Shown: positions 20,035 through 58,180 of the stretch, one piece after another | How positions within the stretch are numbered: position 1 is the stretch's first letter | Layout: every line of letters begins with the position of its first letter | DNA from: Linanthus parryae | Taxonomy: Eukaryota > Streptophyta > Magnoliopsida > Ericales > Polemoniaceae | DNA length: 64,000 nt | NCBI GenBank assembly: GCA_023055425.1 | Contig: JALGPY010000005.1 | Coordinates: forward strand, 5,605,501-5,669,500 | Direction: 5' to 3' | The notes under the pieces: model-generated | What the model saw: the letters and a program-made list of their open reading frames with translations, nothing else | Told to the model about the DNA's origin: nothing | Database searches by the model: none | Made by a program: the position numbers and the translations under genes

Positions 20035-20037
20035 TTT

Positions 20038-20055: not shown

Positions 20056-20075
20056 ACTTACCAGCAAAAGCAACC

Positions 20076-22686: not shown

Positions 22687-22698
22687 AGGTGCGCGGGG

Positions 22699-22893
22699 AT
22701 GTCCTCACACGGGCATGGGGATGTCCCTGAGCAAATCAATCAAATCGAGCAAGTTGCGCTCACGGAAGAGCCAACACCAGGCACTCCAGACGAGAAACTC
22801 AAAGAAGCGCCCGAATGCATGGAAGATAGGCCAAGACCACAAAAGGAAGAGCTAAAGGAAGTGTCCCTCAAACCGAACGAGGAAAAGAAAAGG
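22699..22893 (+). pseudogene. pol: Element A pol, N-terminal stub
   Basis: An ATG at 22699 lies in the gag frame 12 nt after the gag stop. The linker runs VALTEEPTPGTPDEKLKEAP to ERPVV-like sequence and is cut at 22898 by element B. Pol resumes at 46837. Confidence 0.8.
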
Positions 22894-22898
22894 CCAGT

Positions 22899-33614: not shown

Positions 33615-33632
33615 CCTGTGGCTCTGATACCA
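33615..33632 (-). promoter_or_regulatory. Element C primer-binding site
   Basis: The reverse complement of TGTGGCTCTGATACCA gives TGGTATCAGAGCC, matching initiator tRNA-Met, one base from the LTR. Confidence 0.88.
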
Positions 33633-33633
33633 C

Positions 33634-35195: not shown

Positions 35196-35200
35196 TGAGG

Positions 35201-36692
35201 CTCCTGGAGAGGACGCAGCAGAGCTAGAGCAAGTCCAAACAGACTTCGCAGAGATCGCAGGTGGCGATAAAGGTGAGATCTTCAATCTCGCAGTTACTTA
35301 TAGAGATGTAATTGTGGGTGCATTGAAGCACGGTGTGTCAAAGCCTGACATTCGCCGTTGGTTGGTAAGCAAATGCGGAGAACCCTCAGGTAATCATTTT
35401 GAGTGATATGCATGTACTAAGCTGTAACCATTTGAGACAAAGCCATGACTGGTTTAATCGCATCCCAGGTCACGCCTCTCTTAAAGACTTGCTTAGTGAG
35501 GATACACTGATAGGGCACGGTTCCACGTCCCTAGTGTATGATGAGGATACCTCAATCCCACCTTCGCGTGGAGGTGCTTATTCTTAGCTTTAGCAAAGAT
35601 AGCGAAATAACTTTTAACATAAGTTACCTCATTTTATCGCATTCGGTATCGCAGGTCATGCTGAGGAACCTGAGCTGGAGCAGAGAAGCCAGACTTCTGC
35701 ATCCCATGTTCCAATTTCGAGCTCCCATGCTGAGAAGCCCGTCGCAGCTGCTGGACACGCAAGTGAGCATCTCGAGGATGTCATTGAACTCTCCGATGAT
35801 GTCGAAGCTGATGCCGTGCCGATGGACGAAGGTGTCTGTACCGGTGGTGAGGAGGAAAGGACAAGTGATGCCAACATTTTCGCATCTGATAGTGTCTTCC
35901 GTCCAGCGACTTCGGTTGTGCCTCCGGCGATGACTGAGCCAGGAGCACCTATCCCTGCGTGGAGCATTTGGGGCTCGCAGGTTGGGAATGTAATCGCAGC
36001 TGGTGCAGCTTACACTCTTCCTCCTAACTATGAGAGTTTGGAGCTCGCAGCTGATAGGAGAGCCATGGAGCGAGGGCAGTCTTCGAACAACCCGGTGGCT
36101 CGCATTCCCTCTATTCATGAAATTCTGGAAGGCACTGGTAAGCAGAGATTTACCATTCGCACGTCGCATTATTTGCTTGCGAGTTTTGACATCATGACTT
36201 GTTTTTGATGTCTCAGGTTTGAAGCAAACCGATGTAGACTGGGTGGTTCGAATGCGCCTCAGATACCCCCGATCATTTGTGAGGTGTCTGGAGATCAGTC
36301 CTTTTGACAGGAGGCTATTCCTTACTGAAGCCATCTGGATACTAGAGCAGCTGTGTGCGGCTACACCTGCGACCATTTCGGCCCAGAGTGCTGAATTGCT
36401 GTGTGGCATGTGCCAAAATCTCGTGCTCAAAGTCCAAGGCAGACTTGGTTTCAAATTCCTCAAGGACAGAGTTACACTGATTCGCGCAGCTGTAACTCTG
36501 AATCTCGGGCACCAGAATCTCGCAGCTGAGATGCAGAAGGTGGAGCAGCAGAAGCAAAAGGTTGATGAAGCTTTGAAGCTGTATCAAGAGATGAATGCCA
36601 AGTGCGAGCAACTAAAGCAAGAAGTGCAACAAGTGGAGAGGCTGATCGAGCAGTTCGAGCCCCAGGACTCCTTAGTCAAAAATTTGTTTTGA
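35201..36692 (+). pseudogene. Antisense PMD gene of element B, exons 3-6 (3' part)
   Basis: Continues exon 3 (35201-35389) after element C. Exons 4, 5 and 6 are 35469-35573, 35655-36137 and 36217-36692, each bounded by GT and AG. Exon lengths are 471 (both parts of exon 3), 105, 483 and 476 nt; element A has 471, 105, 489 and 476. The product ends in a coiled coil (AAEMQKVEQQKQKVDEALKL and on) and stops with TGA at 36690-36692. The reading frame in this part is open. Confidence 0.82.
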
Positions 36693-37109
36693 CTTTTCGA
36701 ATTTTTGAAAAGAAAGGAAAATGACTGAGACATTAATGTAATGTTTTGAAACATTAATGTAATGTTGCTAGGGTTTCTCCCCCCTCTTTTTAACAACAAA
36801 CAATGAGTTTGCCCGTTTTGCCCTTTTCGGGATTTGATTGGACATTTTCTGTGCATATCCAATTATGACATCAGCAATTGATTCTTTGCTTGATTTTCGC
36901 GCTAATTTCTCAGCAGATAAGCATGCTTCCGTTGGGAAGTCCATCCGAATCATGACTATCCGTCATTTATTAGGATACGCAACCGAATCGTCGTAGCCTT
37001 TAGTAGGGTAATTGATTGTTACCGCTTTTCAAGGCGTAAGTGATTGAACTTACCCTCTTTTTTGAATTTGCTGACTCATCTCAAGCAACCGAAGAGTCTC
37101 CACAGGGCC
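36693..37109. other. 3' end region of the antisense gene, element B
   Basis: Just after the stop, ACATTAATGTAATG occurs twice (36732-36766). It contains the palindrome ACATTAATGT and is conserved as a pair in element A (52501-52540). No coding frame. The pair may mark the 3' end of the gene. Confidence 0.35.
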
Positions 37110-37117
37110 TATTTAAA
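37110..37117 (+). promoter_or_regulatory. TATA box before a short conserved ORF, element B
   Basis: TATTTAAA in CCTATTTAAACCCCGTC. The aligned site in element A is TATATAAA (52148-52155, minus) in the same context, so the box is kept although the bases differ. Confidence 0.5.
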
Positions 37118-37152
37118 CCCCGTCTTTGCCATTTGGGTTCTTCATCCCAAAC

Positions 37153-37500
37153 ATGTGCTTTGCCGTGAGTCCTTACGACTGCTGGCCTCAACGCTTGTTT
37201 TTCGTTGATTCATGGCAACTTCAAGTTTTGAATCCTGAGTTTGCGCTTCGTGCTATAGAAATGGTTTCCAAGATCCACTTTATGAGGCTTATTGCTGTTT
37301 ATAACCATCATAAAGAGGATGCAGATAATACCTCATGTGTATTCGAAGAAATTTCTTCGTGTATTATGTGTGCAGGTCATGTTTCCGGCCGCCTCGTGGC
37401 GAGGTGCAGCGCCGTAGTGACCGTGCTACCGTCTCGTAATGAACGGCGTGATTCTTCTTCAGCATCTCCAGAGAAGAATCTGTCGCCTTCACATTTGTGA
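37153..37500 (+). CDS. Short conserved antisense ORF, element B
   Basis: The ATG at 37153 begins MCFAVSPYDCWPQRLFFVDS and the frame runs 115 codons to TGA. The frame upstream is open from 37126, but only with a non-ATG start. The element A copy (minus, about 52112 to 51765) has the same length with mostly conservative changes. It lies on the same strand as the PMD gene, downstream of it, with its own TATA box. No known domain is recognised. It could be a small protein gene or an untranslated RNA that happens to stay open. Confidence 0.4.
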   Translation: MCFAVSPYDCWPQRLFFVDSWQLQVLNPEFALRAIEMVSKIHFMRLIAVYNHHKEDADNTSCVFEEISSCIMCAGHVSGRLVARCSAVVTVLPSRNERRDSSSASPEKNLSPSHL

Positions 37501-38179
37501 GGTCGGGGTGCTCGTCAATGCCCTTGTCCAATATGACAAGGAGTCCATCACCAGAGGAATGACTGCTTCGCCTGTCTTGCGGAGTAGCATCTGTCGGAAC
37601 AGGAAGCTCCTCCGGCGCCTATCTTGATCAGACAGAGGCCTTAGTCATTCTTTGGGGTCTTGGGCATATCGTATCCCTGACCTTGCTGCTAGGGATATAG
37701 CGAATGACGAGTTGATCTCTTCGCGGCAGCATCCCTTTTGCTATAGATCTTTGGCCGCGGATCCGCGCACTGTGCTGCCGGTGTCAGGACCGGTGGATTC
37801 TCTCTTTTCTTAGCCGAGAGTTTCCTTGGTGCATATCCGGCTTACCAGCCATTTTTGAATGTATTGTAAGCCATGTTGGCTGTGTAGTTAGATGCGAGCT
37901 TTTCGCTTGTAAGCTGCTATCTAGATAGATAAATTGTAAGTCATTTGACTCATAATGATAAATAGCTTTTGTATTATCTGTTCTTTGCAACAAAATACAA
38001 TTTCGCATGCGTTTCGGCTTGTTTTGCCTTGCGTGATGACATGTAATGATTTTTCATATGTGATGTCAATTCGCAGACATTTCGCTAGATCATTTGAGAT
38101 CGTAATTTCGCAGCTGTGCCATCTTGACGGATGGGCTTGTAGTTGGTCGTTGTAAATCGTATGAAATCACGTTCACAAC
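37501..38179. other. Spacer between the short ORF and minisatellite, element B
   Basis: Collinear with the matching part of element A (51091-51764). Contains AGATAGATAAATTGTAAGTC-like sequence leading into the repeat array. No gene recognised. Confidence 0.4.
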
Positions 38180-39598
38180 GTTGTTATCGTTCCAGATAAC
38201 TTTCCAGAGATCAATTAAGATCGTTGAGCTGTGCAAATTGCTATCATAGAAGATAGGCTTTGTTTGAGATCGTTTCTCGCATAAACTGCTATCACAGCAG
38301 ATAGATCTTTAGAAGATCTAATAAAATGATTCTGCACTTGCGTTGCCATCATAACGGACGGGCTTGGGTGATTAACCAGAATTACTTTGCGTATAAATTG
38401 CTATCGTAACAGATAGGCTTGAGAAGATCATTATAAGATCGCACCTGCTATCCTCAAGAGATAGGCTTTAGACGATCGATTGAGATTGTTTTTGTATTTT
38501 TGCTGCTATCGCACAAGATAGACTTTGGACGATCATGTAAGATCGTATTTGCTTTTGGGTGCTATCGCAAGGGATAGGCTTTAATGATCACTTAAGATCG
38601 CATTCGTATGGACTGCCATCGCGAAAGATAGGCTTCAACAGTCATTCAAGATCGCATTTGCGCCTGGCTGCTATCGTAAAAGATAGACTTTGCATAATCA
38701 CTTAAGATCGCATTTGCATCTGATTGCTACCATAAGAAGTAGGCTTTAGGCGATCAATTGAGATCACATTCGTATTTGGCTGCTATCGTAAAAGATAGGC
38801 TCTGATGATCAACTAGGATCGCATTTGTATTTGGCTGCTATCGTAAGAGATAGGCTTTAGTGATCAATTAAGACCGCATTGGTATTTGGTTGCTATCGTA
38901 AGAGATAGGCTTTAGTGATCAATTAAGACCGCATTGGTATTTGGTTGCTATCGTAAGAGATAGGCTTTAGTGATCAATTAAGATCGCATTCGTATTTGGC
39001 TGCTATCGTAGGAGATAGGCTTTAGTGATCAATTAAGATCGCGACTGTATTCGTTGCTATCGTAAGAGATAGGCTTTGCATGATCATTTAAGATCGTATT
39101 TGCATTTGCTGCTATCGTAGAGATAGGCTTTGATGATCAATTAAGATCACGTTTGTGTTTGCTGCTATCGTAAGAGATAGGCTTTGATGATCAATTAAGA
39201 TCGCATTTGTGTTTGGTGCTATCGTAGAGATAGGCTTTGATGATCAGTTAAGATCGCGTTTGTGTTTGCTGCTATCGTAGAGATAGGCTTTGATGATCAA
39301 TAAAGATCGCATTTGTGTTTGCTGCTATCGTAGAGATAGGCTTTGATGATCAGTTAAGATCGCGTTTGTGTTTGCTGCTATCGTAGAGATAGGCTTTGAT
39401 GATCAATTAAGATCGCGTTTGTGTTTGCTGCTATCGTAGAGATAGGCTTTGATGATCAGTTAAGATCGCGTTTGTGTTTGGTGCTATCGTAGAGATAGGC
39501 TTTGATGATCAGTTAAGATCGCGTTTGTGTTTGCTGCTATCGTAGAGATAGGCTTTGATGATCAATAAAGATCGCATTTGTGTTTGCTGCTATCTGCA
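38180..39598 (+). repeat. Minisatellite array, element B
   Basis: About 23 head-to-tail units of roughly 55-62 bp. Each holds two inverted repeats, CTATCGTAAGAGATAG and GATCAATTAAGATC, joined by short GCATTTGTGTTTG-type linkers. Units are most uniform at the pol side (39100-39598) and degrade towards 38180. Tat-lineage elements are known for variable tandem repeats in this position. Confidence 0.9.
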
Positions 39599-39814
39599 GC
39601 GAATAAATCATTGTCAACAGTGATATCAAATAAAATAGAGCAATATAAGCGGCTAGAAATATGAACTTCTCATTTGGGAGAATTCTTTTATTACATCGCT
39701 CTCATATGGGAGAGGTAGAATTACAATCCTCTCATATGGGAGAGGAGATTGCATCAATCGTAGCCACATGAGATATTAAGCAACGTTATCATAGAACGTA
39801 TAAAATAAGAGAAG
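39599..39814. repeat. Hairpin cluster downstream of pol, element B
   Basis: Three near-palindromic motifs of the type CTCTCATATGGGAGAG occur within 39665-39750. The same cluster is in element A at 49985-50070. Confidence 0.6.
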
Positions 39815-42800
39815 TCAAGGATAGTACTTCTTGATCCAGCGCATGTTGACTGAGCTCGGAGTCGAGGTTGTGCCGTGCAACCTTCGTATGCTGCAGTAGC
39901 CACTATCGAAGACTTCTGTGACTTCGAAGGGTCCTTCCCAATTAGCTGCGAACTTCGGGTGAGTCGCTTCTCGCATGCAGTGGTCGGATGCGCGCAAGAC
40001 CAGGTCGCCAACTGCGAAATCCCGCCGCTGAACTGTCTTGTTGTAGGCGCGAGCGATCCTCTCTTGGTACCGCTGGTTAGTCCTTTTAGCTTGTTCTCGC
40101 TTTTCTTCCAGCAAGACTAAATCGTGATCGCGTTGATTTTCATAGAGCGTATGGAAGGCCAGCCTTGCCGAATTGACTCTGACCTCCGCAGGTACTACAG
40201 CTTCGGCCCCATAACATAATAGAAATGGCGAAGCCCCTGTGGGTGTTCTTGGAGAGGTCCTGTAGGCCCACAGAGCTATGTTAAGAGAGTCGGCCCACTT
40301 CTTGTGGTCATCTGCGACCATCTTGCTCAGAATTCTCAGCAGCGTTTTGTTAGTCGCCTCGGCTTGTCCGTTTCCCTTTGGATAATAGGGGGTAGAGCAT
40401 ATCTGCCTGATATTGTACTCCGCAAGTTTTGTAGCTACCTGACGATTAACAAAAGGAGTACCGTTATCTGAAAGAATAGTATTCGGGATTCCGAACCTGC
40501 ATACGATGTTTTCCTGGATGAAATTGACCACAGCCAGCGCGTTTGCCGTCTTTAGTGGTATTGCTTCCACCCATTTGGTGAACAGCTCAGTTGCAGTGAG
40601 AATGAAATGGTTCCCATGTGACGTTGGTCGGATGGGGCCAATGAAGTCCAAAGCCCATGTGTGAAATGGCCATGGTGTTCCTAATGCATGTAGATCCACA
40701 GCAGGAGCGTGCACTAGGTTCCCTTTGAATTGACATTCTTGGCAGCGTCGCACCTTGGTGCGGCAATCGACTTCCATCGTGGGCCAGAAGTATCCGATTG
40801 AGAGGAGCTGTCTGCATAATTTCGCACCTCCCTGATGTTCCACCTGATGAGAGAGATCCATGACCTCTTGTGCTTCCCTATCGTCTAGGCATCGCAGCAA
40901 GTTGCCCTCGTGACCTTTTCGCCAAAGCAGGTTTTCTTGAACCACATATCGAGAAGCTTTCCTCCTCAATTTATCTGCATCTTTTCTCGATTCGGGTACA
41001 GTGCCCTTGGTGAGGAATTCAAACAATGGCTTTCTCCAGTCTGTGTCGTCATCGATTAGAGCGACAAGTAGAGAATCTTTGATTAGTGCGCAACTTTCGC
41101 ACTTCCCTTGTATCAGGGCTGCCGCTGTAGACATGCTTGGCCAATGGATGCCATATCTCTGAGCTTTCCTGTAGATTGACACCTCGCTTTCTCCGCAAGC
41201 GTGTTGGTGAATCTTTTCCAGCAGCTGTTGTCCCTCTTGCTCGGAGACACATCGCATGAGTATTCCTCCGGGACCCTTGTAGTAAAGGGTGTTGTCGTGG
41301 ATACAATATCCTTTCGTGAGTGCCCAGCTCTCGCTGCTGGTGCCTTTCGCAATGGCTTGCAGGATTGCTTTTCGCCAGTCTGCGTCATCCATGTGTTCGT
41401 CGTCACACGCATCTTCTGTTAATGTGGACGATGTTCGCACTTCGATGGAAATCCTCGCAGGGGCATTTGTCTATGCTGACCTTAGATCCCAGAGTTGCTA
41501 AGGCGTCTGCATGCCTGTTGTCCGCTCGGGGCTTGTGCTCGTATTTCACGTCACAGAATTGCTGCATCAGCTTTTGCACCAGAGTGCGGTATGACAGGAG
41601 GTTGATTTCCTTTAAACCATATTCACCCGAGGCTTGCTTAACAATCAGTTTGTAATCTCCCATGACCGTTAAGTTGCTCACTTCTAAAGCTTTCGCCGCA
41701 CGGAGTCCCGCGATAAGAGCCTCGTATTCCGCCTCGTTGTTCGTGACTGCGAAATTGAGTTTTGCGGACATCTGTATGACTTCCCCGTCGGGCTTTGTCA
41801 AGACTATCCCAATGCCCCCGCCTTTTCTGGTTGACGAACCGTCGAAGTGGAGGGTCCAATAGGGCACGCCAATCGCGTAGATTTCAGGGCCTTCGAGCTC
41901 TTCCTCAATCACGGGTTCGTGACTGTTGTCGGGGAACTGTGCCAACAGATCTGCTACCGCCTGCGACTTGATCGCTCTTGGCTTCACGCATGTGATGTCG
42001 TATTGAGAGATGGTCATATACCATTTCGCCAATCTCCCGCCCGGAGTAGTGTGAGTTAGCAAGTATCTTATGGGGTCGCTTTTGGTGACCACCACTACTT
42101 TGTGCGATGCAAAATAGTGTCTCAACTTCTCTATTACAAAGAATAAAGCAAGGCAATGACGTTCGATGTCTGTGTACCTTGATTCAGCAGGCTGCACAAT
42201 GCGAGAGATGTAATAGATAGGCCTCTCTTGGCCCTCATATACCTGGGCCAAGAGTGCTCCTATAGATCTCCTTGTTGATGTAAGATATAGCAGCAGCGGT
42301 GATCCCAGTTGAGGCGCGATCATAATCTTTGGGGATGTAAGTATCTCCTTTAGCTTTTCGAATGCGGCTTCGTGGTCAGGAGCCCAGTTGTACGCGGCGT
42401 CCTTCTTGAGAAGAGTGCTGAAACAGCATGTGATTTCGGCGATTGCTGGGATGAATCTCCGCAGATATGACAATTTTCCCAAGAATGTTTTCAAGGCGCT
42501 CTGGTCGTGAGGTGGCGTCATGCTGGTGATGGCTGACACTTTCGCAGGGTCAGGCTCGATCCCTTGGCGATGGACCACGCATCCCAAAAACTTCCCCGAG
42601 GTCACGCCGAATGCGCATTTCATAGGGTTCATTTTCAGTTGAAAGCTCCTGCATCTGTTGAACACCTTTCGCAGGTCTGCAAGGTGATCTGCTTCATGCC
42701 TGGATTTGACTACCAGGTCATCCACGTAGAATTCCACCTCTTTGTGCATCATATCGTGGAATAGAGCCATCATGGCCCGCTGATAGGTTGCACCTGCGTT

Positions 42801-43551
42801 CTTAAGACCGAACGGCATTACCGTGTAGTTGAATACCCCCACGGGAGTGATGAATGCAGTTTTCTTCGCATCTTCGGGATCCATCTTGATTTGATTGTAT
42901 CCGCTGAAGCCGTCCATGAAACTGAACATGCGATGGCCTGCCGTCGAATCAATGAGTAAGTCGATGTTAGGCAGTGGGAAATCGTCCTTAGGGCAGAAGC
43001 GGTTGAGATCGCGGAAGTCCACGCAGATGCGGAGCTGTCCGTTCTTCTTCACCACCGGCACGATGTTGGCCAACCATGTAGGATGGTGATTTGGCTCTAT
43101 GAACTTGGCGTCTAGGAGCTTAACGATCTCCTGCTTGATCTTGACGTTGAGCTCTGGTCTGAAGCTCCTGGTGCTTTGCTTGACCGGTTTAGACCCTGGG
43201 ATGATGTCTAAACGGTGCATGGTGATGCTCGTGTCCAGTCCTGGCATCTCATCGTATTCCCACGCGAATACATCCTTGTACTCCGTTAGGAGCTGCAGCA
43301 GCCCTTGTTCCTCTTCGCTTGTGAGGTCCGCACTCAGGAAGACTGGCCTCCTCTTTTCCTCGTTCGGGCTGAGGAACACTTCCTTTAGCTCTTGCTTTTG
43401 TGGTCTTGGCCTGTCTTCCATGCATTCGGGCGCTTCTTTGAGTTTCTCGTCTGAAACAATCTGTGTTGGCTCTTCTGTCAGCGCAACTTGTTTGATTCGA
43501 TTGATTTGCCCAGGGACACCCCCATGCCCGTGTGAGGACGTCCCCGCGCAC
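39815..43551 (-). pseudogene. pol: Element B pol polyprotein with one frameshift
   Basis: Follows gag in the same frame after its TGA. In order: a linker, reverse transcriptase with YVDD at 42719-42730 (minus), a first RNase H, then the second archaeal-type RNase H (LHFDGSSTRKGGGIGIVL, then NNEAEYEALIAGL). The integrase follows, with zinc-binding HHCC (HQVEHQGG, CQEC) and Asp in WALDFIG, Asp in LSDNGTPF and Glu in GQAEATNK. The protein ends KKYYP at 39815. One extra base near 41458-41463, compared with element A, shifts the frame between RNase H and integrase (672-codon and 541-codon frames overlap there). All catalytic motifs remain visible. Confidence 0.9.
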
Positions 43552-43553
43552 CT

Positions 43554-46166
43554 TCATATGCGATAGCATTTCTTCCCGTTGGCGTAGAAGCTCTCTATCT
43601 CCTTACCCTCGGGGTCATGCTTTGCAATCCTCTTCAGGGTATACACATTCTTCCGATGATATGCGATGCGCGGCGCCTCTTCGTGTGTAGGCGGCTTTTC
43701 CTTGGCATCTCCCCTTGTCACCATCACGCCCGCAGGTGACTGGTCTTTGATGTCCTCCCAGAGAGGTAAAGGAGTAGGGTTGAATGGTCCGGGTGTTTGC
43801 TCGTCCGCCATCTCGGTGAACCACACCGCCTCGCTGAGATGTGCTTCGTCCAAGTTGAACGGGTTAGTTGAGGCTGGTATCTCGACAATCCTGTCGTTCC
43901 AGATAGCTTTCATCACCTGGTGAGCCGTCGAAGGGATTGCGTCGAAGCGATGAATCCAAGCTCGACCGATGATCATGTGATATGTGGTGTTCGCATCTAT
44001 GACATAGAACTTCGCCGAACACTTGATCTTACCAATCTGAACGCCTAGGCGGATCCATCCGATCGTCATTCTAGAGTCGCTTCCGAATCCCACCAGCGGG
44101 GATGGACGTTTGACCACTTTGTGCTCGGGGATCCCTGCTAGCTTGAGCGTGTGGAGGGGAACAACATTGACCGCTGCTCCTCCATCGACAAACGCTCGCT
44201 TGAATTCGACGCCGTTGATGATGGCGGTGACGTACAGGGGCCTCTGGTGGCTCGCATCTGTCTTCTTGTCGCTGGCAGAAAAGGTCATAATCTTTTCTGT
44301 GGGACGGGACGCCCTGATGACTTTCCCGTTGGAGACCACGAGCTCCTCTTCGTAGTCCTCCGCTATCCTTAAGATTGCTTTCGTCATATCCGCTCGGCAT
44401 TTTTCTGAGAAGTTCATCTCATCAAAGAATTTGCTGAAGCCGTGCGACCCTTTCATGCGATCGGCACGCTCATCCTCTGTGTCCATGCTGTAGTCTTCCT
44501 CTTCATGGACTTCAGCGATGATCGGTAGACCATCCTCTGCGACTTCTTCTAAGTCTACTACCGAGATCATGGCGACCTCTTTGCCCTTTGAGCCCGAATC
44601 TGTATGGGCAGGCAGCGGGTTGCTGCGCACGTCCTTCCGGTGGTCGCTAACGATGAGTTCGCCGTTCTTCATCTTCTGGTCGAACGCGAATCTGAGCTTC
44701 TTGCACTCGGCCGTGGGGTGCATGACCTTGCCGTGGTATTCGCACCACTTAGGGTCCCTCGTCATCTCCTTGGAGGGTGCTTTCTCGAGCGGTGGCAGGA
44801 CGCCGTCCTTGCGCCACTGTCTGCAGAGATCGCTCGCTTCCTCCACCGAGCATGGCAGAGGCGGTGCGTCGAAGTTTGTAACCTTCGCTTGTTTCTGGGG
44901 CGAAACTGCGTTGACTTCAGCTTCGCGTCCTCGCTTGTAGCCGAATCTGCCGATCTTGTAGGTGGTGCCACTCGCAGGTCGTTCTGGAGCGCTCTTCTTT
45001 CTCTGTCTCTCGACGATGGGCTCGATGTTCATCGTGCACTCGATGAGCTTTGAGAACGTGGGTGTTTGCAAATTGATCAGCATGCTCTTGTATTCATCTC
45101 GCATGCACTGCAGGCATATCTCTACGAGTCGGCTTTCGAGCATGGGATCCTTACACTCCAAGGACTTCGCTCTGAATTTCTTGATGAAAGTGATCCCATC
45201 CTCCTCGCGTTTTTGATACATCCGCGAGAGATGGATCATCGTCACCTTCTCTTCCATCTGGAAGAACTTGGTGTAGAACTTCTGGACCATGTCGTCCCAG
45301 GTCTTTACAGATCCGGGCTCCAATGTTCGGTACCATTTGTATGCTACATTCCCAAGAGTTTTTGGGAACTCTCGCATCAGCAGTTTGGGATCAGCTCCAT
45401 ATGGACCCATGACGTCAATGAAACGCATGACATGCTCATGAGCGTTCCCGTTGACGTCCTCGAACTTATCCCATTTGGGAGCCTTGTACCCCGCCGGGTT
45501 AGGCATGAGATAGATCTCTCGTGGAATGGGTGGATCGTTGTCTAGCTTCGGGATGATGGTATCCGCGAGCGATTGATGAGCTAGGATGGAGTCCACACGC
45601 TTCTGCAAGGACGTCATGCATTCTGGGAGGCTTCCCTCGGTAGCTGCCGGAGGGGTTGCCGTAGGCGGTGGCGACACATATGCCGCCGGGGGATTGGGAG
45701 TGTATTGACTGCCCGCGTTTCCCCAAATCGTCGCTGGTGGAGGCAGAGTGTACTGCAAAGTTGGGTTAGACGCCAAAGCCGTGGGCTGAGAGGCGTGAAC
45801 AGCAGGGGGTAGCATTTGCGCTGTTGATCCTTGGACCGAAGGCAGCTGCGCGGCTGACGGTGGAGTTTGCAGATGAGGGTTGGGAGGCGTGGCCGACACT
45901 CCCATTCCCGGAGCGGTGGGGGTACCACCTCCCTGAGGGATGGCGGCAACTGGTGGAGGATTTGGTGCAAGGGTGTTCAGAACGGCCAAGATCCGTTCCA
46001 ATTGCGCAGATTGAGACTTGAGAGCTTTTGCCTGACTTTGGACAGTGGCGTCCAAGGACTCTAAAGTTGGCGCCTCGCCGGGAGTCGTCGGAGTACGGCG
46101 GACTTCTTCTCCCGAGGGGGTTTCGGCGGAAGGCGATCGGTTGCTGACATCGTCCTCCTGAGACAT
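43554..46166 (-). CDS. gag: Element B gag-protease, intact
   Basis: 870 codons from the ATG at 46166 to TGA at 43554. The frame is open slightly upstream, but 46166 matches the start in element A. It has a low-complexity Pro/Ser/Thr N-terminus and a capsid-type gag domain at roughly residues 230-330 (FIDVMGPYGADPKLL, WYRTLEPGSVKTWDDMV). A basic region follows, then the His/Cys motif CEYHGKVMHPTAEC and an aspartic protease core FVDGGAAVNVVPLHTL near residue 660. It packages the element's RNA into virus-like particles in the cytoplasm. It is the only complete gag in the stack. Confidence 0.9.
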   Translation of the reverse strand: MSQEDDVSNRSPSAETPSGEEVRRTPTTPGEAPTLESLDATVQSQAKALKSQSAQLERILAVLNTLAPNPPPVAAIPQGGGTPTAPGMGVSATPPNPHLQTPPSAAQLPSVQGSTAQMLPPAVHASQPTALASNPTLQYTLPPPATIWGNAGSQYTPNPPAAYVSPPPTATPPAATEGSLPECMTSLQKRVDSILAHQSLADTIIPKLDNDPPIPREIYLMPNPAGYKAPKWDKFEDVNGNAHEHVMRFIDVMGPYGADPKLLMREFPKTLGNVAYKWYRTLEPGSVKTWDDMVQKFYTKFFQMEEKVTMIHLSRMYQKREEDGITFIKKFRAKSLECKDPMLESRLVEICLQCMRDEYKSMLINLQTPTFSKLIECTMNIEPIVERQRKKSAPERPASGTTYKIGRFGYKRGREAEVNAVSPQKQAKVTNFDAPPLPCSVEEASDLCRQWRKDGVLPPLEKAPSKEMTRDPKWCEYHGKVMHPTAECKKLRFAFDQKMKNGELIVSDHRKDVRSNPLPAHTDSGSKGKEVAMISVVDLEEVAEDGLPIIAEVHEEEDYSMDTEDERADRMKGSHGFSKFFDEMNFSEKCRADMTKAILRIAEDYEEELVVSNGKVIRASRPTEKIMTFSASDKKTDASHQRPLYVTAIINGVEFKRAFVDGGAAVNVVPLHTLKLAGIPEHKVVKRPSPLVGFGSDSRMTIGWIRLGVQIGKIKCSAKFYVIDANTTYHMIIGRAWIHRFDAIPSTAHQVMKAIWNDRIVEIPASTNPFNLDEAHLSEAVWFTEMADEQTPGPFNPTPLPLWEDIKDQSPAGVMVTRGDAKEKPPTHEEAPRIAYHRKNVYTLKRIAKHDPEGKEIESFYANGKKCYRI

Positions 46167-46185
46167 GGTTGCTTTTGCTGGTAAG

Positions 46186-46203
46186 TTCACGTCGGGTTCA
46201 CCA
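46186..46203 (-). promoter_or_regulatory. Element B primer-binding site
   Basis: Minus-strand TGGTGAACCCGACGTGAA, the same as in element A, 3 nt from the 5' LTR. Confidence 0.6.
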
Positions 46204-46206
46204 AAA

Positions 46207-46831
46207 TGTGCACAAGAGATTCCGGCGGGGAGACCTACGTGTACACCGTACGTAGTGGATCGGGGATCGCACAGGAAGAATAGGGGTGTGTGTAGGGAGA
46301 GAGTAAGTCAGTAGCAATGTCTGAGAGAGAGACAGAGGTTTGGCAGAGCTTCCGCGTATAGCAGTGTTGTTCTTTTTGTATGGAAAGAGTAACGATATAT
46401 ATATACTGGAGAACGTGACCGTTGTAGTGTGGTTAATGCGCCCATTAATGGCGGCTTAATTAGCTTAACCATAACGGCACGTTCGTCCGAGTATATAGGA
46501 ACCGTTAGAGCACGTGGTGCGCGAGTACCGGAACCGTTATGAGGTTGACCGGGTTTGACCGGATTGACCGGGTCTAGGGAGCTCGTGCCAAAGATCTCTC
46601 AAAACAGTTACTAAAGGTCGCGCGCGGGCTTGGCTCGCACGCGACAGGGCTTACCCTAGCCTCCAAACCACAAGTCCCTACAAGTCCCGTGCAGTGGTAT
46701 GCGAGGGCTCTGTCTCGCAGCCCCCACATGGATCAGCTCGGCTGGTGATCCTGTGTGTGTGGAGCACAATATGGTGTGCTGGATGGTCGCCACGTGGCCC
46801 AGATCTGCCATGTCATAAAGCAGTATCTACA
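46207..46831 (-). repeat. Element B 5' LTR
   Basis: 625 bp. One difference was seen against the 3' LTR (46237 versus 22929). Confidence 0.92.
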
Positions 46832-46836
46832 CCAGT

Positions 46837-49800
46837 CTTCCTGAGTGCGGACCTCACAAGCGAAGAGGAACAAGGACTGCTACGGCTCCTAACTGAATAC
46901 AAAGACGTGTTCGCATGGGAGTATGATGAGATGCCAGGCCTGGATACAAGCATCACCATGCACCGTTTAGACATCATCCCAGGGTCTAAACCAGTCAAGC
47001 AAAGCACCAGGAGCTTCAGGCCGGAGCTCAACGTGAAGATCAAGCAGGAGATTATCAAACTCCTAGATGCCAAGTTCATAGAGCCGAATCACCATCCCAC
47101 ATGGCTGGCCAACATCGTGCCGGTGGTGAAGAAGAACGGACAGCTCCGCATCTGCGTGGACTTCCGAGATCTCAATCGCTTCTGCCCTAAGGACGATTTC
47201 CCACTGCCCAACATCGATTTGCTCATCGATTCAACAGCAGGCCATCGCATGTTCAGTTTCATGGACGGTTTCAGCGGGTACAATCAAATCAAGATGGATC
47301 CCGAAGATGCGCGGAAAACTGCATTCATCACTCCTGTGGGGGTATTCAACTACACGGTGATGCCGTTCGGTCTTAAGAACGCGGGCGCAACTTATCAGCG
47401 AGCCATGATGGCTCTATTCCACGACATGATGCACAAAGAAGTGGAATTCTACGTGGATGACCTGGTAGTTAAATCCAAACACGAAACGGATCACCTTGCA
47501 GACCTGCGAAAGGTGTTCAACAGATGCAGGAGCTTCCAACTGAAAATGAACCCAATGAAATGCGCGTTCGGTGTGACCTCGGGGAAGTATTCTTTGTGAT
47601 AGAGAAGTTGAGACACTATTTTGCATCACACAAAGTAGTGGTGGTCACCAAAAGCGACCCCATAAGATACCTGCTAACTCACACTACTCCGGGCGGGAGA
47701 TTGGGGAAATGGTACATGACCATCTCTCAATACGATATCACATGCGTGAAACCAAGAGCGATCAAGTCGCAGGCGGAAGCAGATCTGTTGGCACAGTTTC
47801 CCGACAACAGCCACGAACCCGTGATCGAAGAAGAGCTCGAAGGCCCTGAAATCTACGCGATCGACGTGCCCTATTGGACCCTCCACTTCGACGGTTCGTC
47901 AACCAGAAAAGGCGGAGGCATTGGGATAGTCTTGACAAAGCCAGACGGGGAAGTCATACAGATGTCCGCAAAGCTCAACTTCGCAGTCACGAACAACGAG
48001 GCGGAATACGAAGCTCTCATTGCGGGGCTCCGTGCGGCGAAAGCTTTGGAGGTGGGCAACTTAACAGTCATGGGAGATTCCAAACTGATTGTTAAGCAAG
48101 CCTCGGGCGAATATGGTTTAAAGGAGATCAACCTCCTGTCATACCGCACCCTAGTACAAAAGCTGATGCAGCAATTCTGCGATGTGAAATACGAGCACAA
48201 GCCCCGAGCGGACAATAGGCACGCAGACGCCTTAGCAACCTTGGGATCTAAGGTCAGCATAGACAAATGCCCCGCAAGGATTTCCATCGAAGTGCGAACA
48301 TCGTCGGCATTAACAGAAAATGCGTGCGACGGCGAACACATAGATGACGCAGATTGGCGGAAAGCAATCCTGCAAGCTATTGCGAAAGGCACCAGCAGCG
48401 AAAGCTGGGCACTCACAAAAGGATACTGCATCCACGACAACACCCTTTACTACAAGGGTCCTGGAGGAATACTCATGCAATGTGTCTCCGAGCAAGAGGG
48501 ACAACAGTTGTTAGAAAAGATTCACCAACACGCTTGCGGAGAAAGCGAAGTGTCAATCTACAGAAAGGCTCAGAGATATGGCATTCATTGGCCAGGCATG
48601 TCAACAGCTGCAGCCCTGATACAAGGGAAGTGCGAAAGTTGCGCACTAATCAAAGATTCTCTACTCGTCGCCCTGACCGATGACGACACGGACTGGAGGA
48701 AACCACTGTTTGACTTCCTCACCCAGGGCACCGTGCCCGAATCGAGAAAAGAAGCCGAAAAATTGAAAAGGAAAGCGTCTCGATATGTGGTACAGGAAAA
48801 CCTGCTTTGGCGAAGAGGTCACGAGGGCAACTTGCTGCGATGTCTAGACGGCAGAGAAGCACAAGAAGTCATGTACCTTTCTCATCAGGTGGAACACCAG
48901 GGAGGTGCGAAATTATGCAGACAGCTCCTCTCAATCGGATACTTCTGGCCCACGATGGAAGTCGATTGCCGCACCAAAGTGCGACGCTGCCAAGAATGCC
49001 AATTCAAAGGGAACCTAGTGCACGCTCCCGCCGTGGATCTACATGCATTAGGGACGCCATGGCCATTTCACACATGGGCTTTGGACTTCATCGGTCCCAT
49101 CCGACCAACGTCACATGGGAACCATTTCATTCTCACCGCAACCGAGCTGTTCACCAAATGGGTGGAAGCAATACCACTGAAGACGGCAAACGCGCTGGCT
49201 GTGGTCAACTTCATCCAGGAAAACATCGTATGCAGATTCGGAATCCCAAATACCATTCTTTCAGATAACGGTACTCCTTTTGTTAATCGCCAGGTAGCTG
49301 CAAAACTCGCGGAGTACAATATCAGGCAGATATGCTCTACCCCCTATTATCCAAAGGGAAACGGACAAGCCGAAGCGACTAACAAAACGCTGTTGAGAAT
49401 TCTGAGCAAGATGGTCGCAGATGACCACAAGAAGTGGGCCGACTCCCTTAGCGTAGCTCTGTGGGCCTACAGAACTTCTCCAAGGACACCCACAGGGGCC
49501 TCGCCATTTCTACTATGTTATGGGGCCGAAGCTGTAGTACCTGCGGAGGTCAGAGTCAATTCGGCAAGGCTGGCCTTCCATGCACTCTATGAAAATCAAC
49601 GCGATCATGATTTATTCTTGCTGGAAGAAAAGCGAGAACAAGCTAAAAGGACCAACAAGCGGTACCAGGAAAGAATCGCCCGCGCTTACAATAAGACAGT
49701 CCAGCGAAGAGATTTCGCAGTCGGCGACCTGGTCTTACGCGCATCTGACCACTGCATGCGAGAAGCAACTCACCCAAAGTTCGCAGCTAATTGGGAAGGA

Positions 49801-49917
49801 CCCTTCGAAGTCACAGAAGTCTTCGATAGTGGCTACTGCAGCATACGAAGGTTGCACGGCACAACCTCAACTCCAAGTTCAGTCAACATGCGCTGGATCA
49901 AGAAGTACTATCCCTGA
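46837..49917 (+). pseudogene. pol: Element A pol, main part, internally deleted
   Basis: Resumes after the CCAGT duplication with reverse transcriptase (YVDD at 47450-47461). At about 47590 the sequence jumps from the TSGK motif straight to FVIEKLRHYF. Compared with element B about 440 bp are missing (B positions about 42148-42590), so the end of the thumb and most of the first RNase H are gone and the frame changes. The archaeal-type RNase H, HHCC zinc region and integrase DD35E follow without a break from 47524 to the stop at 49917. Confidence 0.88.
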
Positions 49918-50137: not shown

Positions 50138-51090
50138 TAGCAATCCATACAAATGCGATCTTAATTGATCATAAAAGCCTATCTCTTACGATAGCAGCGA
50201 AATACAAATACGATCTTAAGTGATCATCTAAGCCTATCTCTTACGATAGCAGCCAATGCAAATGCGATCTTAAGTGATCATAAAAGCCTATCTCTTACGA
50301 TAGCAGCCAACGCAAATGCGATCTTAAATGATCATCTAAGCCTATCTCTTACGATAGCAGCCAATACAAATGCAATCTTAAGTGATCATAAAAGCCTATC
50401 TCTCACGATAGCAGCCAATGCAAATACGATCTTAATCGATCATCTAAGCCTATCTCTTACGATAGCAGCCAATACAAATGCGATCTTAAGTGATCATAAA
50501 AGCCTATCTCTTACGATAGCAGCTAATGCAAATGCGATCTTAAGTGATCATCTAAGCCTATCCCTCACGATAGCAGCCAATGCAAATGCGATCTTAATTG
50601 ATCATCTAAAGCCTATCTCTTACGATAGCAGCCAAACGCAAATGCGATCTGAATCGATCATCTAAAGCCTATCTCTTACGATAGCAGCGAAATACAAATG
50701 CGATCTCAATTGATCATCTAAGCCTATCTCTCACGATAGTGGTCTATACAAGTGCGATCTTAATTGATCACCTAAGCCTATCTGTTACGATAGCAACTTA
50801 TACGCAAAACGATCTTATATGATCTTCTCAAGCCTATCTGTTACGATAGCAATTTATACGCAAAGTGATTTTAGTTGATCACCCAAGTCCGTCTGTTACG
50901 ATGGCAACGCATGTGCAGAATCATCTTATTGGATCTTCTAAAAGTCTATCTGTTGCGATAGCAATTTATGCGAGAAACGATCTCAAGCAATTCTCTAACA
51001 AAGCCTATCCTCTGTGATAGCAATTCGCACCACTTAACGATCTTAATTGATCTGCTAAAGACTATCTGTTACGATAGCAATGTTGTGAAC
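50138..51090 (-). repeat. Minisatellite array, element A
   Basis: About 16 units of 58-62 bp, reverse complement of the element B array as expected from its orientation. Core AGCCTATCTCTTACGATAGC plus GCGATCTTAAGTGATCAT. It is shorter and less uniform than in B, and unit order is not shared, so the arrays evolved separately. Confidence 0.9.
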
Positions 51091-52112: not shown

Positions 52113-52147
52113 GTTTGGGATGAAGAACCCAAATAGCAAAGACAGGG

Positions 52148-52575: not shown

Positions 52576-55500
52576 TCAAAACAAATTCTTGATTAAGGAG
52601 TCTTGGGGCTCCAACTGCTCGCTCAGCTTCTCCACTTGTTTCACTTCTTGCTTCAGTAGCTCGCACTTGGCATTCATTTCGTGATACAGCTTCAAAGCTT
52701 CATCAACCTTTTGCTTCTGCTGCTCCACCTTCTGCATCTCAGCTGCGAGATTCTGGTGACCGAGTTTCAAAGTTACAGCTGCGCGAATCAGTGTAACTCT
52801 GTCCTTGAGGAATTTGAAACCAAGTCTGCCCTGGACTTTGATCAGGAGATTTTGGCACATGCCGCACAGCAATTCAGCACTCTGGACCGAAATGGTCGCA
52901 GGTGTAGCCGCAGACAGCTGCTCCAGTATCCAGATGGCTTCAGTAAGGAATAGCCTCCTATCAAAAGGCCCGATCTCCAGAGATCTCACAAACGATCGGG
53001 GGTATCTGAGACGCATCCGAACCACCCAGTCTACATCGGTTTGCTTCAAACCTGAGGAGACGTCAAAAATGAGTTATGATGTCAAAACCCGCAAGCAAAT
53101 AATGCGACGTGCGAACGGTAAATCTTTACTTACCAGTGCCTTCCAGAATCTCATGAAGAGAAGGAATGCGGGCCACCGGGTTGTTCGAAGACTGCCCTCG
53201 CTCCATGGCTCTCCTATTAGCTGCGAGCTCCAACCTCTCATAGTCAGGAGGAAGAGTGTAGGCCGCACCAGCTGCGACTGCATTCCCAACCTGCGAGCCC
53301 CAAATGCTCCACGCAGGAATAGGTGCCTCTGGCTCAGTCATCGCTGGAGGCGAAAGGACAGCCGAAGTCGCTTGGCGAAGGACGCTCTCAGATGCGAAAA
53401 CATTAGCATCACTTGTCCTTTCTTCCTCAGCACCGGTACGGACACCTTCGTCCATCGGCACAGCATCAGCTTCGACATCATCGGAAAGTTCGATGACATC
53501 CTCGAGAGGCTCACTTGCGTGTCCAGCAGCTGCGACGTGCTTCTCGGTATGGGAGCTCGGAATTGGAACATGGGATGCAGAAGGCTGACTTCTCTGCTCC
53601 AGCTCAGGTTCCCCAGCATGACCTGCGATACCAAATGCGATGATGTGAGGTAACTTGTGTTATAAGTTATTTCGCTATCTTTACTAAAGCTAAGAATAAG
53701 CACCTCCACGCGAAGGTGGGATTGAGGTATCCTCATCATACACTAGGGACGTGGAACCGTGCCCTATCAGTGTGTCCTCACTAAGCAAATCTTTAAGAGA
53801 AGCGTGACCTGGGATGCGAGTAAACCAGTCATGATTTTGCCTCAAGTGGCTACAGCCTAGTATGTGCATATCACTCAAATAATTACCTGAGGGTTCTCCG
53901 CATTTGCCTACCAACCAACGGCGAATGTCAGGCTTTGACACACCGTGCTTTAACGCATCCACAATTACATCTCTATAAGTTACTGCGAGATTGAAGATCT
54001 CACCTTTGTCGCCACCTGCGATCTCTTCGAAGTCCGCTTGGACTTGCTCTAGTGCTGCTGCATCCTCTCCAGGAACCTCATCTTCCTCCTCCACATGAGG
54101 AGCCACTTCTTCGGGAAGCTCGTCTTCCTCGCCAACTGGACGCACTAAGTCGTCGACATGCTGCTCTTCGAGGCCCCGCTGTTTCACACGCTCGAGCTCC
54201 TCTTCCTCTCGCTGCCTTCTTCTTTCAGCAGCCTCTGCGGCTGTCTTCCGGGACTCAGCAAGAACATCCTCGCTTATGGGATCATCTGAAATGCTAGAAT
54301 GGGCATCTCTCTTTTGTCTCTTGGCCACAAGGCCACCAACGGCTTCATCATCATCATCTGCGAATACACAATTGGTTCAAAGAAAAGAATTGCAAAGAAG
54401 TTATGATAACGGGCAAGGAGATGCGACGGAAGTACCTCCTGATTCTTCCTCGCGCATCACAACTGTTGCTTCTTCTTCTTCATCACTTGCCTGGGGCTCC
54501 TGCCTCTCTTCCTCTTCCTCTTGGTTGAATGGAACGAAAGTCTCAACTGCGAGATCTTTCCGCACTTTGCTGGGCATGCGACCCTTGCCTTTGTCCTTGA
54601 TAGAAAGGGACCTCACTGGGGGAGAAGCTGGAGCACTCCTAGGGGAAGAAATCGTAATTCCCTTTTGCCTAGGTCTCTTCACTCTCGGCGCTGCAGTCGC
54701 TGGAGGGGACGAGTCATCTCTAGGAGGAGACGGAGCCGGAGGATTGTCTATCAGCGAGTCAGCAAAAGTATTCATGACTGCGCGAACCTTTGTTTCGACC
54801 TCGGCGTCCATTTTCCATGCTTGCCGGAAGGACTGCCCTTGTCTTCTGGTGGAAACAATGGTGTTAACCAGCGATTTGGAGCGATCACCAGCTGCGAACC
54901 TCCGCACATGACACTGAAATGGTGCAGAATGAAAATATCAGTGTAAGCAAGCCAAGAAGCTCAAAGCACACGAAGAAATTGCTTACCTCAGCAAACGCCT
55001 TGCTATATTTGACGACATGCGTGTCGCCCTTCTTGATTGCGTCGACTTGCTCCTTCAGAATGAAATCAGGGCACAAATGGTTCTCGCGGTCCCACAGCGA
55101 GTAGCAACCATACTCAGACTCGCTCAAACTGCAATTGGGGCGAAACGGAAAAGAGTTTCTTTTGATCAAGGGGGCCCTACCTGGCTGCGCCGCCGCCTCC
55201 GTCTCAATCCTCGTTTGCTGGGCAACCCAGTATGCGAGCCAGTTCTGGGAACAACCACCCTTGCGAGTTCCCGCAGGCTGCTCAAAGGGAAGATTGTTCA
55301 TGAAGACCGTCTTGCACTCCTTTGTCAGCAAGCGCTCGTAGCACCCTCTGATAATAGACTGGGGCCAGATCGATGGGGCCACCGCATCAAAACCAAACTG
55401 AGGAGAAACCCGAGTGGGGTCGACATCCACTGTAAGCTTTTCATACCTGGGCGCGAGCTCACGAATATGCTCTGCAAGGGCAGGAAGGGAACCTCGCAGA

Positions 55501-56867
55501 CACCAGCAAAAGAACTCACGATAGCGCTCGTGGAAATGCGGCCCCTTTTCAAAGAGAAGTTCTTCCGAGAAGACCATACCTTTGGAAGGGTATAGCTTTG
55601 GAAACCATCGCACATTCTCGACACGCGTGGCATAGGGCCTGGCAGTAAACTCCTTTCGTTTGTCGCATATCAAACTCCAAGCACACTTGGTGTTGCTTGC
55701 TCCAAACCATCTCGCAGCTCTTCCGCTGTTGCGCGCTTCTGTCTCGCCTGGGGGACACCACTTATCAAGTGGGAGAGCAGTTGGAGCATAAGATGGCCAG
55801 CGCTCGAAAACCCACATTGTCAGAAAGGAAATATTGACAAAGGTCAGAACATCGAGGCGGCCACGCGACTCCCTCATTGCCAGAACCAGCTGATCCAGCC
55901 TATAATATAGCGTGCCCAATACCAAGGGTCCGAGTGCGACTCTCTGGCCAAGAGCGAGCCTCACAGCAAGTGGCAGCACATGGTAGAAGACCCCGTCATG
56001 GGGGTGACCATCAATCAGGTACCTCGATAACCAGGCACAGAGAAAAGCACAAAGGGTCAAATGATAACCCTTGCCCTCTACGTAATTCTCGGCCTCCGGG
56101 TCCTCGCTCAAAAGCTTCTTAGTAATGCTGCTGTTCGCATAGTCTCGAAAGAAGTACTGCAACCATTTGTTCCAGGTATTCTTCGCAGACGTATCAACCA
56201 GCTGCCAGTTCGGAAGAGGCTTTGTAGTGGTCCACCGAGTGGAGATTTTCTTTACCTCTGCTAGGCACTCCTCCATCTGCGCGTACAAGGTCATTTCCGC
56301 AGATGTCCTCAAGGGACTCAAAGGGTCCACGTCGCCCATGGGGGAAAGCTCGTACAGCATTTGAACATCCTCGAGTGTCGGGGCAGCCTCGAACTCAGCA
56401 AAATGGAACGTATGGGTCGCAGGCGAGTAACGGGACAGAAGGTCTAGAAGCATGGACTGATCCAACTTCACGGCAGCACCCTTCATAGCACGGATAGCAA
56501 AGTATACGCCGGCTTCATTAAGAGTCTCGGCGTGATGATCCAACACGTGGTCAATCCACTCATCCATATAGTCCAATTTCTGGACGAACGCCTGAGTAGA
56601 AATCGCAGTATATGGGAAGTGCCCGTTCTCGATCCCCAATCGAACTACATCCTCGGAACCAACCAACTCGAGCAAGGCTGAGTTAACTGGGCGAGTCAGC
56701 GTCAGCAATCGCTCAACTGGAACAGGATCAGGCATCCTCTTCGCCTTCACCCTCGCATGATAGAAATCTTTCCCACCCAGAAAGGGGGCTTTTCGCCACA
56801 AGGCCTGCGGAAGCTCGGGCATCTCTTCATCTTCCTTGACGGGTCTGGTTACTCTTGTCTTGGCCAT
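52576..56867 (-). CDS. Intact six-exon antisense gene of element A: plant mobile domain protein
   Basis: Exons (minus): 56867-54987, 54913-54436, 54357-53887, 53808-53704, 53622-53134 and 53051-52576. All introns are GT-AG and 73-102 nt or less. Exon lengths (1881, 478, 471, 105, 489, 476) sum to 3900 nt, giving 1299 residues with no internal stop. The start MAKTRVTRPV is just after a splice-acceptor-like CGCAG, as in element B. Residues about 150-560 are a plant mobile domain (aminotransferase-like PMD family): FHFAEFEAAPTLEDV at 154, LTLCAFLCAWLSRYL at 271. Then come a Pro/Ser/acidic region with basic KRPRQK and KRQKRD patches, a charged helix and a C-terminal coiled coil. Host PMD proteins (MAIN, MAIL1) act in transcription and transposon silencing. 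A nuclear role here is inferred. Confidence 0.82.
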
Positions 56868-57538
56868 TCCTGCGGAAGAGCAAGAAAAAAAGGGGGGGAG
56901 AAATACCACACTTCAGTTCGAATTTTGGAATTCGAGATCTATGCAAAGGAAAGCGAACAGTTCCGGTACCGATTTCAGAAATTGGGGAGTTGCAAGATCC
57001 AATATTGTTGAAAGATTAAAACGAAGCGGGTTCAAAGATCAAAGCCTCTTCACAAATTTCATGGGTTTACAAATTCAACGCAGTTCAAGGCAAACATTGG
57101 TATTTTAAATCAAAAATAAACGAGGCCAACCTTGTTTCCTTGAAGCTTGCTTGGATATGCACAATTGAAGAATACGATTTGCAGTTCTGAACTGGTGATT
57201 GATTATCTGGATCTGCTCTCGAAGATCTCCGGGTACCATTCACTTTAAGAGAAAGAAGTGATGCTTTGCAATAATGGGGATACAAGGTATTTATCCAAAA
57301 GAATGAAGGGTTGCGTCCCTTCAGTAGTCGAATCGCAACCGTCACCGTCGTATCGCGCAATCACAGGACAGGCTGACGTCACGCCTAAAACCCTAAAGGT
57401 CAGACGGCACGACTCTAGGGGTTTTAGGTCATAATGACACGCACGGGGGCTGAACTTACCCGTATTTGAATTGGTGCGTGGCGGCGACGCGCATGTTGGT
57501 TTCCGCGCATGGAAGTCTATACGGCTATGAGCCTTCAC
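56868..57538 (-). promoter_or_regulatory. Promoter and leader of the antisense gene, element A
   Basis: TATA-like GGATAAATACC read in reverse (57286-57296) lies about 420 bp upstream of the ATG and is kept in element B. A likely leader intron ends next to the ATG. A 91-codon minus frame at 57085-57360 is not conserved as protein in element B. Confidence 0.45.
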
Positions 57539-57556: not shown

Positions 57557-58180
57557 TGTAGATACTGCTTTCTGACATGACAGATCTTGGCCACGTGGCA
57601 ACCATCCAGCACACCATATTGTGCTCCACACACACAGGATCACCAGCCGAGCTGATCCATGTGGGGGCTGCGAGACAGAGCCCTCGCATACCACTGCACG
57701 GGACCTGTAGGGACTTAGTGGTTTGGAGGCTAGAGTAAGCCCTGTCGCGTGCGATCCAAGCCCGCGCGCGACCTTTAGTAACTGTTTTGAGAGATCTATG
57801 GCACGAGCTCCCTAGACCCGGTCAATCCGGTCAAACCCGGTCAACCTCGGAACGGTTCCGGTATTCGCGCACCACGTGCTATAACGGTTCCTATATACTC
57901 GGACGAACGTGCCGTTATGGTTAAGCTAATTAAGCCGCCATTAATGGGCGCATTAACCACACTACAACGGTCATGTTCTCCAGTATATATATCGTTAACC
58001 TTTCCATACAAAGGAGAACACACTGCCATACGCGGAAGCTCTGCCAAACCTCTGTCTCTCTCTCAGACATTGCTACTGACTTGCTCTCTCCCTACACACA
58101 CCCCTACTCTTCCTGTGCGATCCCCGATCCACTACGTACGGTGTACACGGAGGTCTCCCCGCCGGAATCTCTTGTGCACA
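57557..58180 (+). repeat. Element A 3' LTR
   Basis: 624 bp with three differences from the 5' LTR seen by eye. It is followed by the GCAGT duplication. Confidence 0.93.

Follow-up and report, generated by a model that had tools for sequence, protein, structure and literature searches.

Some clades of plant mobile domain (PMD) proteins are found only in Ty3/gypsy retrotransposons: PMD-A1 and PMD-A2 are encoded by these elements across angiosperms (Ikeda et al. 2017, PMC5418596). PMD is the commonest atypical domain in gypsy consensus sequences. Within the Tat clade, a survey of extra open reading frames (ORFs) reported PMD (pfam10536) in 57% of Ogre elements and Transposase_28 in 23% of Retand elements (Neumann et al. 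2019, PMC6317226). Retand, Grande, and RIRE2 elements also have antisense ORFs between pol and the 3' long terminal repeat, or LTR (Vicient 2025, PMC11963269; Vicient and Casacuberta 2020, PMC7264820); in Retand, they are reported from recent clusters. On the host side, MAIN and MAIL1 (PMD-C) silence transposable elements. (This background is drawn from passages of these papers and of PMC7156037, PMC10673657, PMC6123737, and PMC12786077.) Here we describe element B, a young Tat-type Ty3/gypsy element from Linanthus parryae, and its PMD gene, which is predicted to be spliced and lies antisense to pol. Element B is in a 64,000-nucleotide stretch of contig JALGPY010000005.1 (positions 5,605,501 to 5,669,500), which we call the window; all plain coordinates are window positions. 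Sequence comparisons indicate that the PMD frame is a gene of the element and not a recent capture of a host gene. We think it probable that this multi-copy family has the gene as an accessory, with a nuclear role in the element's own propagation.

Like PMD-A1 and PMD-A2, the protein in element B is a PMD protein of a gypsy retrotransposon; we made this comparison by description. (The passages we used from PMC5418596 mention Fgenesh predictions around each PMD, but not exon structure, orientation, or selection values.) Like Ogre elements, element B belongs to the Tat clade and has an extra ORF with a PMD. The survey in PMC6317226, as described in its passages, required an uninterrupted ORF with a minimum length of 250 codons; a gene with several exons would be seen only in part. 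Ogre elements are recognized by a tRNA-Arg primer binding site and long LTRs (PMC9289625), whereas the element here has LTRs of 624 bp and an antisense gene near the 3' LTR. The place and orientation of this gene, and the tandem repeats in the same interval, are as described for the antisense ORFs of Retand, Grande, and RIRE2. Passages on Grande describe an internal promoter upstream of the antisense gene (PMC7264820), and we propose a similar layout. In Retand, TRP28 is reported from 97% of the clusters of antisense ORFs (PMC11963269), but the element here has no TRP28 match; and the interval between pol and the 3' LTR is 7,639 bp here (49918-57556), as compared to 2,933-6,566 bp in Retand (PMC11963269). 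Element B does share with Retand that the stretch from pol to the 3' LTR contains an ORF in antisense orientation. We did not label it as Retand because TRP28 is absent and the interval is too long. Finally, the protein shares the Pfam PMD domain with MAIN and MAIL1, but these are described as host genes with a standalone PMD and a role in silencing, while the element's protein adds a long linker and a C-terminal part.

Passages of this literature show that PMDs encoded by gypsy elements, extra ORFs on the antisense strand of Tat elements, and the idea of counter-silencing are already in print. In the library searched, no paper combined all four of the terms retrotransposon, antisense, introns, and plant mobile domain. 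What we add is an intact gene with its introns in place, estimates of the selection on it, and a promoter-like block that is conserved.

A predicted six-exon PMD gene opposite pol

The PMD gene runs from 56867 to 52576 on the minus strand. The entire Pfam PMD match lies within exon 1 (54987..56867; 1881 nt, 627 codons). Exon 2 (54436..54913; 478 nt) encodes a Ser/Pro-rich and acidic linker with a basic patch at residue 706, and exon 3 (53887..54357; 471 nt) is acidic with a basic patch at residue 799. Exons 4 (53704..53808; 105 nt) and 5 (53134..53622; 489 nt) are followed by exon 6 (52576..53051; 476 nt), which encodes a C-terminal region that ends in what looks, by eye, like a coiled coil, with the stop codon at 52576-52578. 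So beyond exon 1, the protein has a charged linker with the two basic patches and then the C-terminal part. All five introns have GT-AG borders, and they are 73, 78, 78, 81, and 82 nt long. The predicted spliced product is 3,900 nt, or 1,299 codons plus the terminal stop, with no internal stops.

An earlier note on this stretch had proposed six GT-AG exons that sum to 3900 nt, a whole number of codons without a stop, and we recovered the same exons and a product of 1,299 amino acids. The note's placement of the gene, opposite gag-pol and just inside the 3' LTR, also held up: pol of element B is on the plus strand, and the start codon of the PMD gene is 690 bp inward from the 3' LTR (57557-58180). 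The note suggested comparing the 1,299-residue product to PF10536. The product matches this family at 93.7 bits, above the curated cut-off of 34.9 (E = 1.7e-26), with residues 127-499 aligning to positions 5-293 of the 347 in the profile. PMD was the sole Pfam family above its own cut-off, and there was no match to Transposase_28/TRP28 (PF04195) at E ≤ 1. The note's background, that Tat elements can carry extra ORFs and that MAIN and MAIL1 act in silencing, agrees with the literature passages.

The gene model is not due to chance: each of the five alternative frames of exon 1 contains 6-28 stops in B, a sister copy keeps the splice sites, and the PMD match is above the cut-off. Protein searches returned no relatives, either with exon 1 (no matches at E ≤ 1e-5 among 7,995 scored candidates) or with residues 20-640 of the spliced product (none at E ≤ 1e-3 among 7,988 scored candidates). 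As the same database contains plant Tat-like pol proteins, these empty searches reflect the limit of the word filter or divergence, and are not proof of absence. Comparing exon 1 to viral contigs found no relative, and comparing it to prokaryote genome contigs gave eight pattern matches, none of which were confirmed.

Selection on the PMD frame

Element B is split by a sister Tat element, element A, which carries a second copy of the PMD gene on the plus strand (from about 24212 to about 36689). The two copies differ by about 8%. Two lesions disrupt the copy in A: exon 1 has a single nonsense codon, and exon 3 is interrupted by another element, C. We aligned the A copy in pieces and never joined it across C; where exon 3 is cut, at the target site of C, the ends of the pieces show two 1-nt gaps, which we took to be end effects. 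At all five introns, both the GT and the AG are kept. The exons differ by indels of 3 and 6 nt, and the introns by indels of 1, 1, 1, and 3 nt.

The ratio of nonsynonymous to synonymous substitution rates (dN/dS) between the two copies indicates that the PMD frame is under purifying selection. Across 1,288 codons, dN/dS is 0.155 by the method of Nei and Gojobori (range of 0.123-0.195 across 500 bootstraps), with 184 synonymous and 109 nonsynonymous changes (Fisher p ~ 1e-52), and the substitutions at codon positions 1, 2, and 3 number 65, 41, and 188. (These values are from our own script, without a likelihood model; we excluded intron-split codons, gapped codons, stops, and a few bases at the target site of C.) The PMD part has a ratio of 0.093, and exons 1-6 have ratios of 0.11, 0.13, 0.25, 0, 0.31, and 0.26. 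When exon 1 is read in its five alternative frames, four have ratios of 1.39-4.15; the fifth, the mirror frame, has a ratio of 0.163, with 23 stops in B and 24 in A.

We considered that the frame might be incidental and that what matters is the antisense transcript, as double-stranded RNA or as a source of small interfering RNAs. PMD genes are loci of phased small interfering RNAs in tea (175 loci, in the passages cited here), and the antisense transcripts of retroelements are described as able to trigger silencing. But the strong bias towards synonymous changes, exon indels whose lengths are divisible by three, and the conserved splice sites show that it is the protein that is conserved. We rejected the reading as a noncoding RNA, which is contradicted by dN/dS, and we view it as very improbable.

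For comparison, dN/dS between A and B is 0.070 for gag, 0.023 for reverse transcriptase (RT), and 0.053 for RNase H through integrase. Instead of regulating expression, the PMD protein might be part of replication or of target-site choice, for instance as a tether for integration or to chromatin. This would fit with the retention of the frame across diverged copies and with a dN/dS within about twofold of gag's. However, exon 1 has no relative in PDB at E ≤ 1, and a single-sequence AlphaFold model was uninformative (pLDDT, the predicted confidence score, of 36). Also, we know of no enzymatic activity of PMD proteins. We consider a role of this kind to be unlikely.

Copies elsewhere in the genome

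We searched the genome (1.51 Gb) for exon 1 and scored the best 70 of 17,326 first-look candidates. All 70 cover residues 1-627 with 97-100% identity. Exon 1 was free of stops in 61 of these 70 best-scoring copies (including B), and the other nine each have one stop. We read another six copies in full (L037-L042); these are plus-strand copies that we picked by hand to span the range of identity, including one in which a stop was already known. The five introns are present in each of the six, and 30 of 30 are GT-AG; together with A and B, the five introns are retained in 8 of 8 copies examined. In five of the six, the frame runs without interruption for 3,897 or 3,900 nt, while L042 has two premature stops. 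In pairwise comparison of these copies, with B included, dN/dS was 0.134-0.182 for 20 of the 21 pairs.

Other PMD genes and elements

At least 127 places in the genome match PF10536, including some that are pieces of one gene, and the window's own copies do not appear among the matches listed. Large clusters of matches, many with long open frames, lie at C57:126.3-127.7 Mb, C46:155.0-155.9 Mb, and C2:29.2-29.9 Mb, which is an unusual local expansion. We fetched 28 PMD places (L001-L028), and for four of them (L009, L012, L014, and L015) we also fetched the 29-kb surroundings. In two of these four regions, the PMD belongs to an LTR element, where it lies between pol and the 3' LTR on the strand opposite gag-pol. 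The first (L031/L012/L032; C46:90447788-90463982) is a Tat-like element whose LTRs are 98.8% identical and whose PMD frame is 978 amino acids from stop to stop; it has no matching target-site duplication (TSD). Repeats at 53-bp spacing are present in this element (L012, 6030-6238). The second (L033/L009/L034; C68:8529108-8545529) is also Tat-like, with LTRs that are 98.1% identical and the TSD GAGAG. Pol from these two elements is 48% identical to pol of element A over 640 residues. Their PMD frames belong to another clade than those of B and A, in the same position in the element. In the third region (C2), a more distant pol (35%) is nearby, and no pair of repeats flanking the PMD was seen in 29 kb.

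The fourth region contains L015 (C57:122935000-122944000), which has a PMD gene with an open frame of 667 amino acids (3278-5281, minus strand). Its 29-kb surroundings have no gag or pol match, and the only flanking repeat is 201 bp at 79%. Among the sequences we compared, L015 is the nearest relative of the element's PMD, with 31% identity, while ten PMDs from the tandem clusters are only 24-27% identical to it. We view L015 as a candidate for a domesticated gene or an old host relative. We built a tree from 19 PMD rows of this genome. In it, the PMDs of B and A group with L015 and are separate from the tandem PMD genes as well as from the type in the C46 and C68 elements; the tool warned that long branches meet, so the depth of this grouping is unsure. 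(L025 was dropped from the tree as a fragment, and L005, L007, L008, L016-L019, and L026-L028 were not entered.)

Could one or a few copies have recently captured a host PMD gene, by transduction? The gene has introns, as a host gene would, and PMD genes are abundant in this genome. However, there are the 70 full-length copies of exon 1, the presence of an antisense PMD at the same place in two further elements that are Tat-like, and the long stem that separates the element's PMD from the tandem PMD genes (in the tree with the long-branch warning). On these three points we rejected recent capture, unless an unsampled host gene is closer than the 31% of L015, and we give it almost no credence. 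The measured selection, the intact frames in further copies, and the two other elements are why we consider the PMD frame to be the element's own.

A sharper version of our preferred explanation, and one that overlaps with it in probability, is that the element's PMD competes with or poisons the host PMDs (MAIN and MAIL1 with PP7L) and so relieves the silencing of its family. MAIN and MAIL1 are described as silencing transposable elements, and a review proposed that the PMDs of transposons are a counter-silencing strategy (PMC8616336, in the passages seen). The element's PMD is kept by selection, and its branch in this genome is separate from the tandem PMD genes. On the other hand, its identity to the ten PMDs from the tandem clusters is low. 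Also, if the suppressor were diffusible, broken copies could hitchhike on it, but the frames are kept; this argument is weak, as the sample of copies favours intact ones. On balance, counter-silencing is possible but somewhat unlikely.

A promoter-like block

Upstream of the PMD gene, A and B share 98-100% identity across a 300-bp block (57182..57481, minus strand), as compared to 90-93% for the adjoining 100-bp blocks and 81-91% for the introns. Within this block is a TATA-like box, GATAAATA, at 57295-57288, which is present in A as well. The block fits a promoter under constraint. The earlier note had proposed that the gene has its own TATA-like box and could be expressed apart from the LTR: the box is found in both B and A, and the conserved block makes a promoter of the gene's own more probable. 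(We disregarded a scan for bacterial promoters as not applicable to plants.) Other well-conserved stretches between A and B include the LTRs, at 96%. Also, a region past the stop codon of the PMD gene (51865-52464) is 96-97% identical, with no clear coding; we have no explanation for this.

The nest of elements

We read the nesting from a self-comparison of the window. Element B comprises 19411-22898 and 46832-58180, and is split by the insertion of about 24 kb that is element A; the PMD gene of the earlier note belongs to B. The 5' LTR of B (19411..20034, plus strand) has the ends TGTAGA...GTGCACA and is preceded by the TSD GCAGT at 19406-19410, which is repeated at 58181-58185 after the 3' LTR (57557..58180, plus strand). 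The two LTRs differ at 3 of 624 positions. The sequence right after the 5' LTR is TTTTGGTGAACCCGACGTG. The primer-binding-site region and gag of B (20035..22898, plus strand) precede the insertion; relative to A, gag is broken into three frames. After the insertion comes pol of B (46832..49917, plus strand), with a remnant of RT, the second RNase H, and integrase; about 445 bp of RT/RNase H that are present in A are missing. Tandem repeats of 53-54 bp lie between pol and the PMD gene in both elements (a 54-bp array at 50150..50969 in B, and 38445-39594 in A).

Element A (22899..46831, minus strand) has LTRs at 22899-23523 and 46207-46831, which differ at 1 of 625 positions, and the TSD CCAGT. 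Its pol frame is interrupted. Element C (27007..35195, no strand given), nested in the PMD gene of A, has identical LTRs of 1,562 bp and the TSD TGAGG, and its interior of about 5 kb has no ORF of 160 amino acids or more. It is a very young and probably non-autonomous LTR element. Element B itself is inserted in a Ty1/copia element, within its pol region: to the left (15730-19410), Pfam finds copia-type gag, integrase, and RT domains, and to the right (58181-58783) is a frame that, by eye, resembles copia RNase H. So this is a four-level nest of copia, B, A, and C. Elsewhere in the window (7287-11581) is a long tandem duplication, with a unit of about 1.3 kb and copies that are 91-94% identical.

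The domain order in these elements is RT, RNase H, second RNase H, and integrase: RVT_3 follows RT_RNaseH in A and precedes H2C2/rve in B. We take RVT_3 to be the second (archaeal-type) RNase H. Since a second RNase H between RNase H and integrase defines the Tat clade (as given in PMC6317226), we placed A and B in this clade, and this agrees with the Tat-type host element of the earlier note. Relatives of pol include one from Camellia (60% identity), and no lineage label appears among the 120 matches listed of 4,925. Comparing pol of A to viral contigs gave 25 pattern matches, none of them confirmed.

Discussion

We propose that transcription of the PMD gene would start at a promoter internal to the element, close to the inner side of the 3' LTR, and that the transcript would then be spliced. 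The protein may enter the nucleus, as suggested by its basic patches and by the literature, and would aid the propagation of its own family by acting on the element's transcription or chromatin. It could do this by activating the LTR directly or by interfering with a host complex of the MAIN/MAIL1 type; our explanation takes either. Some retroviruses have antisense accessory genes that act in a comparable way. An intron-bearing gene would pass through reverse transcription unchanged, because introns in antisense orientation present no splice signals in the genomic RNA. Taken as one chain, that a nuclear PMD protein from a spliced antisense gene with its own promoter counters the host's PMD-dependent silencing, and that the antisense orientation lets the introns survive RNA-mediated replication, is doubtful.

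Several points weigh against our explanation. Element B itself is not autonomous, because its gag is broken and its pol is short by about 445 bp relative to A. We infer the nuclear role only from the basic patches and the literature. The 300-bp block could reflect recombination between elements rather than constraint. The tally of exon 1 favours intact copies, since the best 70 of 17,326 are only the best-scoring end; A, at 93%, lies outside this set. The six extra copies are known from the gene sequence alone, and not from LTRs or pol beside them. The youngest and closest pair, B and L038, has a dN/dS of 0.506 (10 synonymous and 17 nonsynonymous changes), as would be expected if constraint acts from one transposition to the next rather than on copies already in place. 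Finally, the near-identical LTRs of element A imply recent transposition, yet its PMD copy is now disrupted by a nonsense codon and an insertion.

Because exon 1, the longest exon, encodes only about half of the protein, surveys of uninterrupted ORFs can undercount such genes. PMD proteins are on both sides of the conflict between host and transposon, as the host copies silence transposons. With multiple copies, mostly open frames among the best 70, and measured selection, this family is a concrete system for studying the function of PMD proteins in transposons.

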